Part shown: piece by piece, positions 24,096-33,948 of the stretch
Layout: every line of letters starts with the position of its first letter
Position numbering within the stretch: position 1 is the stretch's first letter
Origin: Lachnospiraceae bacterium
GTDB lineage: Bacteria; Bacillota; Clostridia; Lachnospirales; Lachnospiraceae
Reading direction: 5' to 3'
NCBI GenBank assembly: GCA_028727605.1
Contig: JAQYOA010000244.1
Location: 1-34,799, forward strand
Length of the DNA stretch: 34,799 bases
Made by a program: the position numbers and the translations under genes
Notes under the pieces: generated by a model
The model's database searches: none
The model's input: the letters and a program-made list of their open reading frames with translations, nothing else
What the model was told of the DNA's origin: nothing

Positions 24096-24124
24096 TTGAC
24101 AAAAAGGGCGAATTGTCTTAAATT
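24096..24124 (+). promoter_or_regulatory. Promoter of the GlgX-like operon
   Basis: TTGACA, 17 bp and TAAATT lie about 125 bp upstream of the first gene of a three-gene operon. No hairpin is evident in the leader. Confidence 0.55.
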
Positions 24125-24248: not shown

Positions 24249-26111
24249 ATGAGTCAGAGAAAAGAAAAGGAAGAACTCCAGGTACTCGCCGGGGATCCGA
24301 GAAAACTGGGAGCATCCAAAGCGGAGAGAGGGTATCATTTTGCTCTTGAAATACCGGAAGGGAAGAAAGCAGAGTTATTATTGTACAAAAAGGGAGAAAA
24401 GGAACCATTTGAGAGAATTCCTTTTACAGAGGAACAAAGAGTTGGTTCGGTAGCTGCAATGACTGTTATCGGACTGAATGGTAATTTTTCCTACAATTTT
24501 TGCATAGATGGAAGGGTATGTCAGGATCCAAACGCAACTGCATTGGAAGGCAGGGATCAATTCGGAGAGCCCGTCAGTGAGGACGAACATGCAGTGCGCT
24601 GTCTGATTGCCAAAAAGCCGGTGATGAGCACACAGCCGCTTTTTCAGCCGTATGAGGATTTGCTGGTTTATAAGCTGCATGTCAGAGGTTTTACCAAAGA
24701 TACTTCTTCTAAAGTAAAACATAAGGGGACATTTCTGGGTGTGATTGAAAAGATCCCATATCTGAAAGAATTGGGAATCAATGCCGTAGAACTCATGCCG
24801 GTATATGAGTTTTTTGAGATGCCGGTAAAAAAGGAAGAAAAAAAATATGCCCCTTTGCTTATTAAGGCAGAGCCTAAGGTGAATTACTGGGGATATGGGG
24901 GAAGAGCACTGTATTATGCGCCGAAAGCATCTTTTTCAGCGACTCACCATCCGGTACAGGAATTTGCACAGCTGGTTGATGCACTTCATGAGAGCGGGAT
25001 AGAATGCATTCTTGAATTTTGTTTTCCGGGTGAAATCACAGCGGCACGTGCTGTTGATATCCTGGAATATTATGTTGTGACATTTCATGTGGATGGATTT
25101 CGGATCATCGGGGATGGAAAACTGGCGATGGAAACGGCCGGAAATCCGCTTTTGAAAAAAACGAAACTGATTTTTGTCGGATTTGATGGAGGACAGATTT
25201 ACGGCGAATCAAAACCGGGAATTCAAAATCTGGGTGAGCAAAACCAAGGTTTTCAGGAAAACGTACGCCGTTTTCTGAAAGGAGATGAGGGCACGCTTCC
25301 GGGCTTTTCTTATTCTATGCGAAGAAATCCGGCAACGCATGGGGTGATTAACTATCTGGCTGAGCATGACGGATTTACTATGATGGATATGGTTTCTTAT
25401 GATACCCGGCACAATGAGGACAACGGAGAAGAAAACAGAGATGGAACCGAGAGTAATTTCTCCTGGAACTGCGGGGCGGAGGGACCTTCGCGCAAGGCTG
25501 CGGTTCGGAAATTAAGAATCCGGCAGCTGAAGAATGCATTTCTGATGCTTATGACCGGTCAGGGAACGCCTATGATTTACAGCGGGGATGAGCTTGGCAA
25601 CAGCCAGAATGGAAATAACAATGCCTGGTGTCAGGATAATAAGGTTGGCTGGATTGACTGGAATGCCGGTAAAAAATATCCGGAGCTTCAGGAATTTGTC
25701 AAAAAAGCGATTGCCTTCCGAAAGGAACATCCGGCATTTCATGGCAGTGCAGAACCAAAACTGTTGGATTACAAAGCTTACGGATGTCCGGATCTGTCCT
25801 ATCACAGTCAGAGAGCATGGTATTCACAGATGGAAAATACAAGCCGTTCGATCGGAGTGATGTATTACGGTGATTATTATCGGAAGCAGGATGGCACACC
25901 GGATACTTCGCTCTATATCGCATATAACATGCACTGGGAAGAGAAAGAACTGGCATTGCCCACACTTCCCGGAAAGCAGGTCTGGCAGGTAACTGTGGAT
26001 ACAGATAAGGAAGAATGTTTTTATGGAGAGGGAAAGGGACCGAAGATAGCCGGAAAGATGGTTACAGTGGCTCCGCGCAGTATTATGATTTTAATCGGAA
26101 AACAGGAGTAA
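24249..26111 (+). CDS. GlgX/isoamylase-like GH13 protein, apparently catalytically inactive
   Basis: This 620-residue protein has the layout of glycogen debranching enzymes: an N-terminal CBM48-like domain (about 10-125), a GH13 barrel (about 135-510) and a C-terminal beta domain. Family landmarks remain (VYKLHVRGFTKD, YLKELGINAVELMPVYEF, YWGYGGRALYYAP, HDGFTMMDMVSYDTRHNEDNGEENRDG, GTPMIYSGDELGNSQNGNNNAWCQDN). The catalytic regions do not. The DVVFNH segment reads EFCFPGE, the nucleophile Asp of VDGFRFD is Ile (VDGFRII, I287), and the general acid Glu of KLIAEPWD is Val (KLIFVGFD, V310). Only the stabilising D374 stays. It is probably a glucan-binding or regulatory pseudoenzyme. It heads a tight operon with a DUF5662 gene and an aminotransferase. 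Confidence 0.85.
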   Translation: MSQRKEKEELQVLAGDPRKLGASKAERGYHFALEIPEGKKAELLLYKKGEKEPFERIPFTEEQRVGSVAAMTVIGLNGNFSYNFCIDGRVCQDPNATALEGRDQFGEPVSEDEHAVRCLIAKKPVMSTQPLFQPYEDLLVYKLHVRGFTKDTSSKVKHKGTFLGVIEKIPYLKELGINAVELMPVYEFFEMPVKKEEKKYAPLLIKAEPKVNYWGYGGRALYYAPKASFSATHHPVQEFAQLVDALHESGIECILEFCFPGEITAARAVDILEYYVVTFHVDGFRIIGDGKLAMETAGNPLLKKTKLIFVGFDGGQIYGESKPGIQNLGEQNQGFQENVRRFLKGDEGTLPGFSYSMRRNPATHGVINYLAEHDGFTMMDMVSYDTRHNEDNGEENRDGTESNFSWNCGAEGPSRKAAVRKLRIRQLKNAFLMLMTGQGTPMIYSGDELGNSQNGNNNAWCQDNKVGWIDWNAGKKYPELQEFVKKAIAFRKEHPAFHGSAEPKLLDYKAYGCPDLSYHSQRAWYSQMENTSRSIGVMYYGDYYRKQDGTPDTSLYIAYNMHWEEKELALPTLPGKQVWQVTVDTDKEECFYGEGKGPKIAGKMVTVAPRSIMILIGKQE

Positions 26112-26118
26112 ACAGGTT

Positions 26119-26694
26119 ATGAAGGCTTGGCAGCACTTTAAGACGATCACAAAGCACAGAATGCTTGTAATGCGTTATTGTTTCAAAGTCGGTTTATATT
26201 ATCAGGGACTGACGCATGATTTATCAAAATATTCACCGACAGAGTTCCTGGTGGGAGCGAAATACTATCAGGGAGATCGAAGCCCGAACAATGCGGAGAG
26301 AGAGGATACCGGAATGTCAAAATCCTGGCTTCATCACAAAGGCAGGAATAAACATCATTTTGAGTATTGGGTGGATTATGGAATTCACTGTGATACTGTG
26401 ATTGAGGGTGTTCCGATGCCAAGAAAATACGTGGCAGAAATGATTATGGACCGTATCAGCGCTTCCAGAGTATATCTTGGAAAGGATTACACAGATCAGG
26501 CTCCGTACGAATACTTTGTGAAAGGCAAAGATCATCTGTGGTTTGTGCATCCAAAGACATTAGGTCAGCTGGAGTTTTTGTTGAAAATGCTCTCGGTGCG
26601 AGGGGAGGATGCAACACTCTGGTATATCCGCAATCGCTTTTTAAAGGGCAGTAAACTGCCCGAATATCGGAATACAGGAGACGAAAGGAAATAG
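26119..26694 (+). CDS. DUF5662 family protein
   Basis: This 191-residue cytoplasmic protein belongs to a family common in gut Clostridia and named DUF5662. It contains conserved histidine/aspartate segments spaced like a metal-binding helical site: LTHDLSKYSPTEF (about residues 31-43), SWLHHKGRNKHHFEYWVDY (about 70-88), and AEMIMDRISASRVYLGKDY. The His-Asp start followed by clustered His recalls HD-type phosphohydrolases, but the match is only general and no activity is claimed. It starts 7 bp after the GlgX-like stop and ends 6 bp before the aminotransferase, so it is translated within the same operon. Confidence 0.85.
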   Translation: MKAWQHFKTITKHRMLVMRYCFKVGLYYQGLTHDLSKYSPTEFLVGAKYYQGDRSPNNAEREDTGMSKSWLHHKGRNKHHFEYWVDYGIHCDTVIEGVPMPRKYVAEMIMDRISASRVYLGKDYTDQAPYEYFVKGKDHLWFVHPKTLGQLEFLLKMLSVRGEDATLWYIRNRFLKGSKLPEYRNTGDERK

Positions 26695-27878: not shown

Positions 27879-27950
27879 AAAATGCCATCGGACGCTGTCA
27901 GATCTGTCAATTTTCGTGATAAACAGGTTTGCTGATATCTGATGGCATTT
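27879..27950 (+). terminator. Long hairpin after the aminotransferase, terminator or attenuator
   Basis: AAAATGCCATC and GATGGCATTTA pair across about 50 nt. The following T run is short (TTTATA), so termination may be weak. The right arm GATGG can instead pair with CCATC at 27954-27958, which would dismantle the hairpin. Confidence 0.45.
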
Positions 27951-27957
27951 ATACCAT

Positions 27958-27994
27958 CGTTCCGTTTCAGATAAATAGAGTTGAAACGGGAACG
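27958..27994 (+). promoter_or_regulatory. Inverted repeat before the FGGY kinase gene
   Basis: CGTTCCGTTTCA and TGAAACGGGAACG (one extra G) flank a 12-nt centre, 37 bp upstream of the kinase start. There is no T run, so this is more likely an operator or RNA control element than a terminator. A pentose-responsive regulator is a plausible binder. Confidence 0.45.
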
Positions 27995-28030
27995 GGTATC
28001 TTGATAAAAACAGGAATGGAGGAATTACAG

Positions 28031-29629
28031 ATGGGAATGGATGCAAAAAACGCAATTTTATCCGGGAGAACAGCATTGGGGATTGAATTTGGTTCTACAA
28101 GAATTAAGGCTGTGCTGGTAGGAGAGGATAATGCTCCGATTGCTTCCGGAAGTCATGACTGGGAAAACCGTTATGAGGACGGAATCTGGACTTATCATTT
28201 GGATGATATCTGGAACGGTCTGCAGGATGCCTATGCCAATATGGCACAGGATGTCAAAGAAAAATACGGAGTCACCCTTACTACGATCGGTGCGATTGGT
28301 TTCAGTGCGATGATGCATGGCTATATGGCGTTTGATCGGGAGGGAAATCTTCTTGTGCCGTTTCGTACCTGGAGAAATAACATTACCGGAAAGGCAAGCG
28401 AGGCGCTGACAGAGGTATTCTCCTATCATGTGCCGCAGAGATGGACAATTGCACATCTTTATCAGGCAATTTTAAATGGAGAGGAACATGTAAAAGAGAT
28501 TGATTATCTGACCACACTGGCCGGCTACATTCAGTGGAAAATGACAGACGAACGGGTAGTTGGCGTTGGTGAAGCATCCGGTATCTTCCCCATTGATTCT
28601 GATACAAATACTTATTTTGCAGATATGGTGGAGAAGTTTGATCAGCTGACAGCAGAGAAGGGTTACCCATGGAAACTGACCGGGATTCTTCCGAAAGTAC
28701 TGGTTGCCGGAGAAACCGCAGGCTATCTGACGGAAGAGGGAGCCAGACTTCTGGACGTTTCCGGTAATCTTCAGGCCGGAATTCCTCTGTGCCCGCCGGA
28801 AGGAGATGCAGGAACCGGTATGGCAGCCACGAACAGCGTGACAAAGAGAACGGGAAATGTATCTGCAGGTACTTCCGTATTTGCCATGATTGTGCTGGAA
28901 AAGAATCTTTCCAAAGTTTATCCGGAAATTGATATGGTAACAACTCCTACCGGTCATCCGGTGGCGATGGTTCACTGCCAGAACTGTACCTCTGATCTGA
29001 ATGCCTGGGTTGGACTGTTTCGGGAGTTCGCGGAAGCTTTTGGAATCCAGGTGGATATGAATGAGCTGTTCGGAACTTTGTATAACAAAGCTCTGGAAGG
29101 GGATGTGGACTGCGGAGGATTGCTTTCCTACAATTATTTCTCCGGTGAACATATCACTGATTTTGAGGAAGGTCGACCACTGTTTGTGCGCACACCGAAC
29201 AGTAAATTCAGCCTTGCAAACTTTATGAGAGTTCATCTGTTTACTGCACTTGGCGCTCTGAAGGTGGGACTTGATATTCTGCTGAAAGAAGAGCATGTAC
29301 AGGTGGATGAGATCTTTGGCCATGGAGGATTGTTTAAGACAAAAGGTGTAGGTCAGAAAATTCTCGCCGCTGCCATGAATGCGCCGGTATCGGTTATGGA
29401 AACAGCAGGTGAGGGCGGTGCCTGGGGCATTGCACTGCTGGCTTCCTACATGATTAATAAAGACGAGAATGAGACGCTGGATGATTATCTGGCAGAAAAG
29501 GTGTTTAGCGGAAACAAGGGAAGCAAGATGAATCCGGATCCGGAGGATGTTGCGGGATTTGAAGCCTTTATTGAGCGCTATAAAGCCGGACTTCCCATTG
29601 AGCGCGCCGCAGTGGAAAATCTGAAGTAA
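28031..29629 (+). CDS. FGGY-family carbohydrate kinase, likely L-ribulokinase/xylulokinase
   Basis: This 532-residue sugar kinase phosphorylates a ketopentose with ATP. The N-terminal ATP/phosphate loop is [37 protein letters not shown] is the substrate-side segment; [33 protein letters not shown] includes the catalytic Asp and phosphate-2 loop; [24 protein letters not shown] is the C-terminal nucleotide segment. The track start (27929) includes a hairpin region; GGAGG and the ATG at 28031 are chosen. The next gene, 14 bp on, is L-ribulose-5-phosphate 4-epimerase, which makes L-ribulose the likely substrate. No isomerase (araA) is in the window, and the hairpins upstream may control it. Confidence 0.87.
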
Positions 29630-29643
29630 AGAGGAGAAAAGAA

Positions 29644-30339
29644 ATGTTAGAAGAATTAAAGAGACGTGTCTATGAAGCCAACATGCTTCTGCCGAAATAC
29701 AATCTGGTGACATTTACCTGGGGAAATGTCAGTGAAATTGATCGCGAGAGCGGCTTGTTTGTAATCAAGCCAAGCGGAGTGGATTATGATTTGCTGACAC
29801 TGGATGATATGGTTGTCATGGATTTAAATGGAAATAAAGTGGAGGGACGGTACAAACCGTCTTCCGATACACCGACACATCTGGAACTGTATAAAGCATT
29901 TCCGCAGATTGGCGGTGTGGTACACACCCATTCGTCCTACGCGACCAGCTGGGCTCAGGCAGGGAGAAGCATTCCCTGCTACGGGACTACTCATGCAGAT
30001 TACATCTATGGTGAGGTACCCTGCCTGCGTTGTCTGACGAAAGAGGAGATTGAGGATGCATATGAAGAGAATACCGGGCATCTGATTGTCAATGAATTTA
30101 ATCGGATGGGAAAAGATGTCATGGCTGTTCCGGCTGTGCTTTGCAAGAATCATGGTCCTTTTACCTGGGGTAAGAATGCCTACGAGGCTGTTCATAATGC
30201 AGTTGTTCTTGAAGAAGTGGCAAAAATGGCCTATCGTGCCGAGACGATTAATCCGAGAATCCAGCCTGCGCCAAAAGAGCTGCAGGATAAGCATTATTAC
30301 AGAAAACATGGGGCAAATGCCTATTATGGACAGAACTAA
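29644..30339 (+). CDS. araD: L-ribulose-5-phosphate 4-epimerase
   Basis: This 231-residue class II aldolase-fold epimerase interconverts L-ribulose 5-phosphate and D-xylulose 5-phosphate, linking arabinose to the pentose phosphate pathway. Typical segments are [58 protein letters not shown] (zinc histidines in HTHS), [27 protein letters not shown] (third zinc His) and [14 protein letters not shown] at the end. The length is the family norm. GAGGAG precedes the ATG, 14 bp after the kinase gene, so the pair is one operon. Confidence 0.95.
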
Positions 30340-30428: not shown

Positions 30429-32390
30429 ATGAAACGAATGCTTGCTCTGATACTTTCTGCGGCAATGTGTTTCGGATTACTGCCCGGCTCTGTTTTTGCA
30501 GCAGAACCGGACTATTATGAAGTTACCTACATAAACCCGCTCTACTCCGGGGAGGTTCGGGAAAGCGATCTTGAGACTGTCTCACCGTATCGTGTCAGTG
30601 CTGCATCCGACGAGGAACCTGAGTATTACACCAGGGTCAGTGAAGCCGGAGCTATTGTGCGAGAAGCGATGAAAGAGCGGCAGGAGACGATCGTGGTCGG
30701 TTTGCAAAGAGATACTCTGGATGGAGATCTGGCAAAAGAACTGGCTTACGAAATTTTTAATCAGGCAATTGAACACACGGGGAATCCTGTGGAAGGCGAT
30801 TATCTTGCCTGGCAGTATGCCGGATGGAAAGGAAGTATTTCCTATAAGACAAGCAATGGCATTTACTATGCGAAGTTTACTTATTCCATAACCTATTACA
30901 CTTCAAGTGAGCAGGAAGAGGAAATGGATGCCGCTGTGGAAGAGGTTTTAGGTCAGCTGGATGTGTATGATGATACGGATTATGAAAAGGTCAAAGCGAT
31001 TTACGATTACATCTGTGCACATACTACCTACGACAATGAACATCTGAACGATGAAGACTATAAGCTGAAATTCACTGCGTATGCGGCTTTGATTAACGGT
31101 ACTGCTGTCTGTCAGGGGTATGCGGTGCTGTTTTATCGTCTGGCACTGGAATTGAATGTTGACAGCCGATTGATTGCCGGAAAAGGAAATGGTGAGTCTC
31201 ATGCATGGAATATCACCGATCTGGATGGTGCGTATTATGATCTGGATTCCACATGGGATGCGGGAAAGACAAGCTACCGGTATTTTTTGAAGTGTGATGA
31301 AAATTTTGGTGATCACACCCGGAATGAAGAGTATGCGTCCGAGGAATTCTATAAAGCATATCCTATGGGATCCGGGGATTATACACCGGATGCTTCTCTG
31401 GAAGTGATAGCAGAAGGAACGTGTGGAGAAGATCTTCGCTTTGAACTGAATGCAGCAGGAAGACTGACTGTTCGCGGAACAAAAGAGATGACGGATTATG
31501 AAATCGGCAAGGAGAACACTCCCTGGCAGGAATACACAGAAGAGATCCGGAAGGTTCGCATCCGGAACGGTGTGGAGAGTATTGGCAATGCCGCTTTTGC
31601 TTCCTGCAGTAATCTGAGCGAAGTAATGATTTCTTCTGATGTTGTCCGGATTGGCAGTTATGCTTTTGCGGAATGTTCCGCTCTGACGGAGGTGACAATT
31701 CCGGCAACTGTGACTGAAATCGGAGCGCACGCTTTCGACGGATGCGATCACTTAACAATTTGTGGATATCGCGATACAGCTGCCCAAAGCTATGCGATAG
31801 AAAATGACATTCCGTTTGAAGATCTGGATCCTGAGCCGGAACCGACTCCGGAACCGGAAAATCCGTTTACGGATGTCAGCGAATCTGATTATTATTATGA
31901 TGCTGTTGTGTGGGCATATGAAAAGGGAATCACTTCCGGCAAAACGGCGACTACTTTTGAGCCGGACGGAGAATGTACCCGTGCTGAAGCAGTGACTTTC
32001 CTGTGGCGAGCAGAAGGCAAACCGGAACCGGAGACGACAGAAAATCCGTTTACAGATGTGAAAGAGGATGCTTACTACTATAAGGCAGTTTTGTGGGCAT
32101 ACGAAAATGGAATTACTTCCGGAACGACAGCGACCAGTTTTAGCCCGAACAGTGTGGTAGACCGGGGTCAGACCGTCACTTTCCTGTGGCGAGCAGAAGG
32201 CAAACCAGAGCCGGAGATGACAGAGAACCCGTTTGCGGATGTGAAAGAGGATGCTTACTACTACAAGGCAGTTTTGTGGGCATACGAAAACAAGATTACT
32301 TCCGGAGTTACAACGACGGAGTTTAAACCGAAAAATCATTGTATCCGTGCACAGATCGTTACGTTTTTGTATCGGTATATGGGACAATAA
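30429..32390 (+). CDS. Secreted transglutaminase-like protein with LRR and three SLH domains
   Basis: This 653-residue cell-surface protein has a signal peptide (MKRMLALILSAAMCFGLLPGSVFA, cleavage probably before AEP). A transglutaminase/protease-like domain follows (about 175-300), with an apparent Cys-His-Asp triad at C228 (GTAVCQGYA), H258 (ESHAWN) and D273 (DLDSTWD). Next come BspA-type leucine-rich repeats (about 375-465: IGNAAFASCSNLSEV, IGSYAFAECSALTEV, IGAHAFDGCDHL), then a Pro/Glu linker and three SLH modules (NPFTDVSESDYYYDAVVWAYEKGITSG and two near copies) to the end. SLH modules bind secondary cell-wall polymers, so the enzyme domain is held on the surface. GAAAGGAG precedes the ATG. 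Crosslinking or peptide-cutting activity is inference. Confidence 0.9.
   Translation: MKRMLALILSAAMCFGLLPGSVFAAEPDYYEVTYINPLYSGEVRESDLETVSPYRVSAASDEEPEYYTRVSEAGAIVREAMKERQETIVVGLQRDTLDGDLAKELAYEIFNQAIEHTGNPVEGDYLAWQYAGWKGSISYKTSNGIYYAKFTYSITYYTSSEQEEEMDAAVEEVLGQLDVYDDTDYEKVKAIYDYICAHTTYDNEHLNDEDYKLKFTAYAALINGTAVCQGYAVLFYRLALELNVDSRLIAGKGNGESHAWNITDLDGAYYDLDSTWDAGKTSYRYFLKCDENFGDHTRNEEYASEEFYKAYPMGSGDYTPDASLEVIAEGTCGEDLRFELNAAGRLTVRGTKEMTDYEIGKENTPWQEYTEEIRKVRIRNGVESIGNAAFASCSNLSEVMISSDVVRIGSYAFAECSALTEVTIPATVTEIGAHAFDGCDHLTICGYRDTAAQSYAIENDIPFEDLDPEPEPTPEPENPFTDVSESDYYYDAVVWAYEKGITSGKTATTFEPDGECTRAEAVTFLWRAEGKPEPETTENPFTDVKEDAYYYKAVLWAYENGITSGTTATSFSPNSVVDRGQTVTFLWRAEGKPEPEMTENPFADVKEDAYYYKAVLWAYENKITSGVTTTEFKPKNHCIRAQIVTFLYRYMGQ
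31995..32302 (+). repeat. Tandem 183-bp repeat within the SLH-coding region
   Basis: The segment starting ACTTTCCTGTGGCGAGCAGA at 31995 recurs at 32178, 183 bp (61 codons) later, and remains nearly identical for about 125 bp. It encodes SLH modules two and three. Such close identity points to recent duplication or gene conversion. Confidence 0.85.
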
Positions 32391-32472: not shown

Positions 32473-33948
32473 TTATCGAAGTGTAAGGCGAAATACCACA
32501 GGCTTATCCGAAGCTACATTTTTGGTAGTAATGTGAAGTCCCTGCTCGTCCCGTACCCATTTTGGAGTTTCATCAAAACCGAGTACATCCACACGGTCAA
32601 TGATTCCGCAAAAGAGCGGAAGATGAGAAGCATCTGCCTTTGCAAAAGAGCGGATGGTAATCCGTCCGTTTTCCGGATAGGAAAGACATGCGGCATAAAT
32701 ATGGGAGCCTTTGACTGTGAAGCGGAAATCCTCTGATGTGAAGACTTTATCAGTTTTATCAGTAAACTGCCCCTGTGCTACTTTTGTTGGTCCTTCACTG
32801 CTGTATCTCCATGGACGGGTACCGTAGATGGCCTCTCCGTTTGCGTCCATCCATTCTCCGATTTCAAGAAGTACTTTCGTATCCTCCGGAGAAATCGTTC
32901 CGTCCGCCTTTGGACCGACGTTTAAAAGGAGATTGCCGTTTTTGCTGACAATATCCACCAGATCGCAGAGAATGCTTTTGGCTGATTTGAATTGATTATT
33001 TTCGGTATAGCACCAGGAATTTTTCGCAATCGCCGTGTCCGTCTGCCAGGGGAAAGGCTGACATTCGGAAAATTGTCCGCGCTCAATGTCTACCAGTGCG
33101 GTTCCGAACATAAAAGCATCGTGCTTATAGGCAATGACAACTTCCTCTCCCCAGGAAACTGCACGGTTGTAATAGTAAGCAGCTATTTTTTTCAGATACG
33201 GTTTTGCACTGGAATGCTGGATCCACCAGTCGAAATACAGTTCTTTGATATGGTAGCGGTCGATCAGTTCGCAGGTACGGATCATCCAGTCTTCCAGAAA
33301 TTCCCGGGAGGGAGTTGGCTCACTAAACAGATCATGGTGATCCGGCTCAGGCATAGCCGGCCAGTAGAAGTCACCCCATTGTTCCTGATCGGTAATGTCG
33401 CTGTCAAATTCGCGTCCGTGTCCCATAAAGAACCAGTGTTCAATTCTGTGCGTGGAGGCGCCGTTGATCAGGCCCTGGCGATGGCATTCTTCAGTTAATT
33501 CGCCGAGGATATCTCTCTTTGGACCCATTTCCCAGGCATTCCAGCAAGAGAGATCACTTCGGTACATCTGAAAACCGTCATGATGTTCAGCGACGGGGAC
33601 AACGTATTTTGCACCGGCTTTTGAAAACAGAGTGATCCATGCAGCGGGGTCAAATTGTTCCGCGCGGAACATCGGGATAAAATCCTTGTATCCGAAGTCT
33701 TTCTGGTTGCCGTAGGTTTTTTGATGATGACTGAAGACGGGACTGTCCTGGATGTACATGTTGCGGGAGTACCATTCATTTCCAAAAGCAGGGACGCTGT
33801 AAATTCCCCAGTGGATAAAAATACCGAATTTGGCGTCCCGAAACCATCGGGGAGTTTCATGCCGGGACAGGGAATCCCAGTCATCTTTGTAGGGACCGTT
33901 TTCAATTACCTGATCAATCTGATCGAGATAACGTTGTTTGTCATACAT
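32473..33948 (-). CDS. Alpha-L-fucosidase, glycoside hydrolase family 29
   Basis: This 491-residue GH29 enzyme removes alpha-L-fucose from glycans or oligosaccharides. Conserved segments are ETPRWFRDAKFGIFIHWGIYSVPAFGNEWYSR (30-62), the EHHDGF motif at 121-126, WNAWEMGPKRDILGEL, KELYFDWW with the probable nucleophile D240, and NGNLLLNVGPKADGTI. A C-terminal beta domain follows. There is no signal peptide, so it acts inside the cell on imported fucosylated sugars. AAAGGAG precedes the ATG. It is divergent from an AraC-type regulator with a palindrome between, which suggests local control. No fucose-pathway genes (fucI, fucK) are seen in the window. Confidence 0.93.
   Translation of the reverse strand: MYDKQRYLDQIDQVIENGPYKDDWDSLSRHETPRWFRDAKFGIFIHWGIYSVPAFGNEWYSRNMYIQDSPVFSHHQKTYGNQKDFGYKDFIPMFRAEQFDPAAWITLFSKAGAKYVVPVAEHHDGFQMYRSDLSCWNAWEMGPKRDILGELTEECHRQGLINGASTHRIEHWFFMGHGREFDSDITDQEQWGDFYWPAMPEPDHHDLFSEPTPSREFLEDWMIRTCELIDRYHIKELYFDWWIQHSSAKPYLKKIAAYYYNRAVSWGEEVVIAYKHDAFMFGTALVDIERGQFSECQPFPWQTDTAIAKNSWCYTENNQFKSAKSILCDLVDIVSKNGNLLLNVGPKADGTISPEDTKVLLEIGEWMDANGEAIYGTRPWRYSSEGPTKVAQGQFTDKTDKVFTSEDFRFTVKGSHIYAACLSYPENGRITIRSFAKADASHLPLFCGIIDRVDVLGFDETPKWVRDEQGLHITTKNVASDKPVVFRLTLR

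Follow-up and report, generated by a model that had tools for sequence, protein, structure and literature searches.

Why would a bacterium keep a full-length homologue of GlgX and isoamylase in which the catalytic regions have been rewritten? The question is raised by an open reading frame in a 34,799-nucleotide contig from a Lachnospiraceae bacterium (JAQYOA010000244.1), the whole of which is referred to here as the window. The reading frame begins with ATG, contains no internal stops, and is present as a single copy in its own genome, an 89%-complete assembly that lies near Fusicatenibacter. The features of the window discussed below are as follows.

24096..24124, plus strand: promoter-like site TTGACA-17-TAAATT, 5' of the pseudoenzyme gene (consensus match alone)
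24249..26111, plus strand: gene for a predicted isoamylase/GlgX-fold pseudoenzyme of 620 amino acids (GH13 match, AlphaFold2 model, Foldseek)
25014..25034, plus strand: region I, residues 256–262, EFCFPGE replacing DVVFNHT, with the following GlgX loop 44 residues shorter (alignment)
25089..25109, plus strand: region II, residues 281–287, VDGFRII, lacking the nucleophile Asp (alignment)
25164..25187, plus strand: region III, residues 306–313, KLIFVGFD, with V310 at the position of the acid/base Glu (alignment)
25365..25373, plus strand: HDG, residues 373–375, the third catalytic Asp position, present in the window and variable across the family (alignment)
25413..25484, plus strand: retained beta7 loop, residues 389–412 (NEDNGEENRDGTESNFSWNCGAEG), with many family-invariant residues (alignment)
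25584..25640, plus strand: retained beta8 loop, residues 446–464 (GDELGNSQNGNNNAWCQDN), with many family-invariant residues (alignment)
26119..26694, plus strand: gene for a DUF5662 (PF18907) protein of 191 amino acids, 7 nucleotides after the pseudoenzyme gene (Pfam)

The encoded protein has the three-domain architecture of isoamylase-type GH13 proteins, consisting of an N-terminal beta domain (residues ~11–134), a beta/alpha barrel (~135–515) and a C-terminal beta domain (~516–620), and it matches PF00128 above the Pfam cut-off. An AlphaFold2 model computed from 87 sequences has a pLDDT of 94.4 and a pTM of 0.94. The nearest solved structures identified by Foldseek are rice ISA1, Chlamydomonas ISA1, Streptomyces GlgX and Sulfolobus TreX (TM ~0.8, 25–28% identity, E of 1e-46 or lower), and the match to plant ISA2 is lower (TM 0.73–0.76). 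A CBM48-like domain had been proposed for this protein. The N-terminal beta domain does appear in the model; however, the sequence score for CBM48 (15 bits, E 0.031) is below the Pfam threshold of 22.4. Against TIGR02100, the GlgX equivalog, the whole protein scores 314.5 bits compared with a cut-off of 640.9, and members of the family scored ~200–267 bits in our genome scan.

In the window protein DVVFNH is replaced by EFCFPGE, VDGFRFD by VDGFRII and KLIAEAWD by KLIFVGFD, and H373-D374 is retained. The original prediction had read these motifs, including I287 and V310, correctly residue by residue. Alignment of 96 non-redundant representatives of the family with 30 true GlgX proteins shows how far these changes extend. 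Asp occupies the nucleophile column in none of the 96 representatives and in none of all 130 collected loci, and 8 of the 96 still have Glu in the acid/base column. The third catalytic position is D in 60 representatives, N in 30, E in 5 and S in 1, and the more divergent members found later have T, N, E, S or Y; the persistence of D374 is thus correct for the window protein but is not a family trait, and the GlgX catalytic triad is not found as a feature of the family. Neither of the two residues that follow the region II Arg/His is D or E in any representative, which argues against a shift of the nucleophile by one position, and we reject a displaced nucleophile like that of BmaN1.

The description of three rewritten catalytic regions is borne out by these sequences, but the main change proves to be a pair of deletions rather than point changes. 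The interval between regions I and II is 29 residues in every one of the 96 representatives and 28 in a single later member, compared with 73 in all 30 true GlgX proteins and 65–69 in pullulanases, and the distance between regions II and III is ~25 residues in the pseudoenzymes versus 39 in GlgX. Relative to GlgX there are two fixed deletions, one of 44 residues between regions I and II and one of 14 residues between regions II and III, the second of which takes out the nucleophile position. No spacing intermediate between GlgX and the pseudoenzymes was seen among the 96 representatives, the later members and the 30 GlgX proteins. Around beta3–beta5 only 7 of 63 GlgX-invariant columns are retained (26 are deleted), versus 34 of 41 around beta7–beta8. 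Strong constraint is evident in the beta7–beta8 loops, the beta1–beta2 region and the junction with the C-terminal domain. As judged from the alignment, one wall of the cleft is removed and the opposite wall (beta7–beta8) is preserved.

The loci that we collected came from named genomes (80) and from a one-per-genus sample of Lachnospiraceae (50), and some were fetched twice. In a maximum-likelihood tree of 83 proteins, built by a quick search with no bootstrap and with plant sequences left out, the family (~130 homologues and the divergent ones found later) is a single clade with an SH-aLRT of 98 that is sister to true GlgX, GlgX from Lachnospiraceae and other Clostridia forms a separate clade (SH-aLRT 95), and pullulanases fall outside. 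True GlgX was also sought among the weaker hits, and all 20 of the weaker or partial matches fetched were pseudoenzymes. Nei-Gojobori dN/dS is 0.04–0.17 in close pairs and ~0.09, at high dS, between the window gene and its nearest relative. These values, together with the intact reading frames, confirm that the gene is under selection and not decaying, as had been supposed, and the recurrence of the same losses across a family under purifying selection excludes chance. The losses are also carried by the homologues as a clade. On this sequence evidence the window protein is an isoamylase/GlgX-fold pseudoenzyme, and none of the sequence-based checks that might have refuted this part of the original prediction did so.

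The pseudoenzyme is present in ~161 of 200 sampled Lachnospiraceae genera (150 from the first scan and a further 11 recovered later, which include divergent and fragmentary sequences). Outside the Lachnospiraceae, samples of 291 genomes from the class and 349 from the phylum did not yield it; the strong matches there are true GlgX proteins, the match being split in two by an extra loop. True GlgX occurs in 57 of the 200 genera, 54 of which also carry the pseudoenzyme (Fisher p 7e-4, uncorrected for phylogeny and completeness). GlgX is nevertheless rejected as an obligate partner by the ~107 genera that have the pseudoenzyme without it. Type I pullulanase was rejected as a partner as well, since it shows no presence association (p 0.85), and 75 of the 150 pseudoenzyme genera have neither enzyme. 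Glycogen synthase GlgA scores above its cut-off in 194 of the 200 genera, so that these bacteria should in principle make a glycogen-type polymer; being nearly universal, its co-occurrence with the pseudoenzyme is not discriminating. In many genera GlgA is present with both GlgX and type I pullulanase below cut-off. In the genome of the window, which is 89% complete, neither GlgX nor type I pullulanase scores above cut-off, and GDE_C has no match. This genome contains further GH13 genes, two of them with CBM48, which we take to be branching enzymes.

The pseudoenzyme gene was predicted to head a tight operon, and its spacing agrees with this: 217 nucleotides containing the promoter-like site lie 5' of it and a gap of 7 nucleotides separates it from the next gene. 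However, among the downstream genes a conserved neighbourhood is common for the first only. That gene encodes a DUF5662 protein, the commonest downstream neighbour of the family. Of the 126 loci with enough downstream sequence, a set in which near relatives are included and some loci occur twice, 91 have a same-strand DUF5662 gene within the 300 nucleotides that follow, in many cases overlapping the pseudoenzyme gene or almost so. Counted by genus, DUF5662 directly follows in 52 of 150, and in 13 more it lies within 1.5 kb. Of 200 Lachnospiraceae genera, 167 have a DUF5662 gene, and 14 control genomes have none. Its association in presence with the pseudoenzyme is weak (p 0.08), with 21 genomes carrying the pseudoenzyme alone and 36 carrying DUF5662 alone, and DUF5662 is therefore rejected as an obligate partner. 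The strictly invariant residues of DUF5662 are His, Asp and Glu and include nine His and Asp residues (H6, H13, H33, D34, H72, H73, H79, D86 and D111), which suggest a putative metal-binding enzyme. Its structure model is confident and all-helical; a fold search gave no significant match, with HD-type hydrolases among the weak ones. DUF5662 distantly matches a phage protein family of unknown function, and no mention of it was found in the open-licence papers searched. We regard it as a lead, not an established partner of the pseudoenzyme.

Other neighbours vary by lineage (xthA, ABC-F, TraX, LuxS), and a general linkage to a glycogen gene cluster was considered and rejected. GlgX lies near the pseudoenzyme gene in two sampled genomes only (G126 and G133). 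In the first, a tight single-strand run (L202:4641-11738) comprises true GlgX, an ABC-F ATPase, the pseudo-GlgX, a TraX-family protein and LuxS. ABC-F ATPase genes are frequent immediate upstream neighbours of pseudo-GlgX, and TraX-like genes adjoin it in several distant lineages (L118, L120, L132, L112, L113 and L202; called by eye except at L202). An Rfam search upstream of the pseudoenzyme gene matched no RNA element. An anti-phage role was considered and rejected, PADLOC giving only a weak match to a GlgB model and PHROGs no match for the pseudoenzyme. Further along the window are an apparent pentose-use pair, a FGGY-family sugar kinase followed by L-ribulose-5-phosphate 4-epimerase (27929-30339); a surface-type protein with a transglutaminase-like domain, BspA-type leucine-rich repeats and S-layer homology domains (30429-32390); and, on the minus strand and convergent with these genes, an alpha-L-fucosidase (32473-33948).

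We consider it moderately probable that the protein binds glucan without hydrolysing it and acts as a scaffold or regulator of glycogen metabolism, as the original prediction had suggested, in parallel with plant ISA2. The pseudoenzyme would be a non-hydrolytic isoamylase/GlgX homologue that probably lost its post-beta3 and post-beta4 loops once, in an early ancestor of the clade, as both the alignment and the tree support; these loops provide a wall of the catalytic cleft, the nucleophile and the surroundings of the acid/base. The half-open cleft and the outer domains may bind branched alpha-1,4/1,6-glucan without cutting it, the most likely ligand being cytosolic glycogen or its limit dextrins, and the protein could scaffold, target or modulate the enzymes of glycogen metabolism in the way that ISA2 serves ISA1. 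Against this reading, the gene generally lies away from glycogen genes, and the conserved beta7–beta8 residues could be structural. Because most carriers lack GlgX, the partner in these would be another enzyme (branching enzyme, phosphorylase, GlgA or the DUF5662 protein), and the analogy with ISA2 is only partial, its strict ISA1–ISA2 version failing. A strict partnership with an active debranching enzyme, either GlgX or type I pullulanase, would fit the presence of the pseudoenzyme in nearly all GlgX genera and the run of GlgX, ABC-F ATPase gene and pseudoenzyme in G126, but it seems quite improbable given the many genera without GlgX, the half of pseudoenzyme genera that have neither enzyme, and the debranching gene complement of the window's own genome. 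The protein might instead be a substrate-targeting or regulatory subunit of the adjoining DUF5662 protein, which would carry out the chemistry. The frequent same-strand adjacency and the nine invariant residues speak for this possibility, which we nonetheless think unlikely, as the presence association is weak, the linkage is explicable by inherited synteny, and DUF5662 has no confident fold match. A broader proposal, of which we are more doubtful still, would make the protein a core glucan sensor or scaffold of the Lachnospiraceae, in which a lineage-defining family of dead debranching proteins and a putative metal-dependent DUF5662 protein would form a carbohydrate-storage module independent of GlgX.

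A remodelled enzyme could have a pocket formed by E256, D282, H285 and D374 and perform another reaction on an alpha-glucan or other substrate. D282 is invariant, E256 replaces the region I Asp in 85 of the 96 representatives, and His replaces the region II Arg in 75; moreover, the GH13 alpha-amylase BmaN1 is active despite an aberrant triad (PMC5347038). However, E256 drifts to Q in 7 representatives and to D in 4, D374 drifts to N in 30, to E in 5 and to T or Y in others, and the window protein itself has R rather than H at position 285. BmaN1, in addition, retains Glu as well as Asp beside its lost nucleophile, whereas the pseudoenzyme family has no acidic residue there and no constant Glu, and we give remodelling a low probability. 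That the protein is an active GH13 enzyme with unusual residues, or else a dying paralogue, is very improbable: the overall GH13 fold and many motifs do persist, but the nucleophile is lost and the cleft loops are deleted in all members, and strong purifying selection on intact frames is at odds with decay.

The family is real, conserved, and undescribed in the open-licence papers searched. That search, covering GlgX pseudoenzymes, inactive GH13 proteins and Lachnospiraceae glycogen, found no description of it, although such absence is not proof. For Blautia obeum, a review gives a count of two glgX homologues (PMC10395257). Roughly four-fifths of the sampled genera of Lachnospiraceae, which are major gut commensals, keep the pseudoenzyme, and fewer than one-third show true GlgX. 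Homology-based surveys of GlgX may thus credit Lachnospiraceae with a debranching capacity that is absent there. In organisms that carry the gene, its deletion and assays of glycogen should in principle be possible, and the clear clade with fixed deletions makes tests of binding and partners direct.

Compared with GlgX and TreX, the family has the same fold, domain order and beta7–beta8 motifs, and 30–35% identity to Lachnospiraceae GlgX. It differs in lacking the nucleophile, usually the acid/base, and the 44 and 14 cleft residues, in scoring far under the TIGR02100 cut-off, and in forming its own clade. BmaN1-type alpha-amylases likewise have altered GH13 catalytic residues and a branch of their own; however, the Glu and Asp adjacent to the lost nucleophile of BmaN1 are not reliably present in the pseudoenzymes, whose loops are deleted. 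Plant beta-amylase 4 (BAM4) is not a GH13 isoamylase-type protein, and its likeness to the pseudoenzyme is one of analogy. PMC12892837 lists BAM4 among its references as a non-catalytic protein of glucan metabolism.

The original prediction knew of no described role for such a protein. None was found for this family; however, a parallel exists in ISA2 of plants and algae, a non-catalytic isoamylase fold that is kept by selection although several of its catalytic residues, the nucleophile among them, are gone (PMC12510319). Retained since the ancestor of green plants, ISA2 binds ISA1 and raises its activity, and its glucan binding lies in the C-terminal part (PMC12510319, PMC12892837). ISA2 serves starch synthesis together with ISA1, whereas the pseudoenzyme family is bacterial and occurs mostly without GlgX. 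By structure comparison our model is also nearer to ISA1 and GlgX than to ISA2. In both cases, nevertheless, catalytic residues have been lost under purifying selection, and the family offers a bacterial counterpart to the question posed in plants of why a non-catalytic isoamylase stays selected (PMC12510319).
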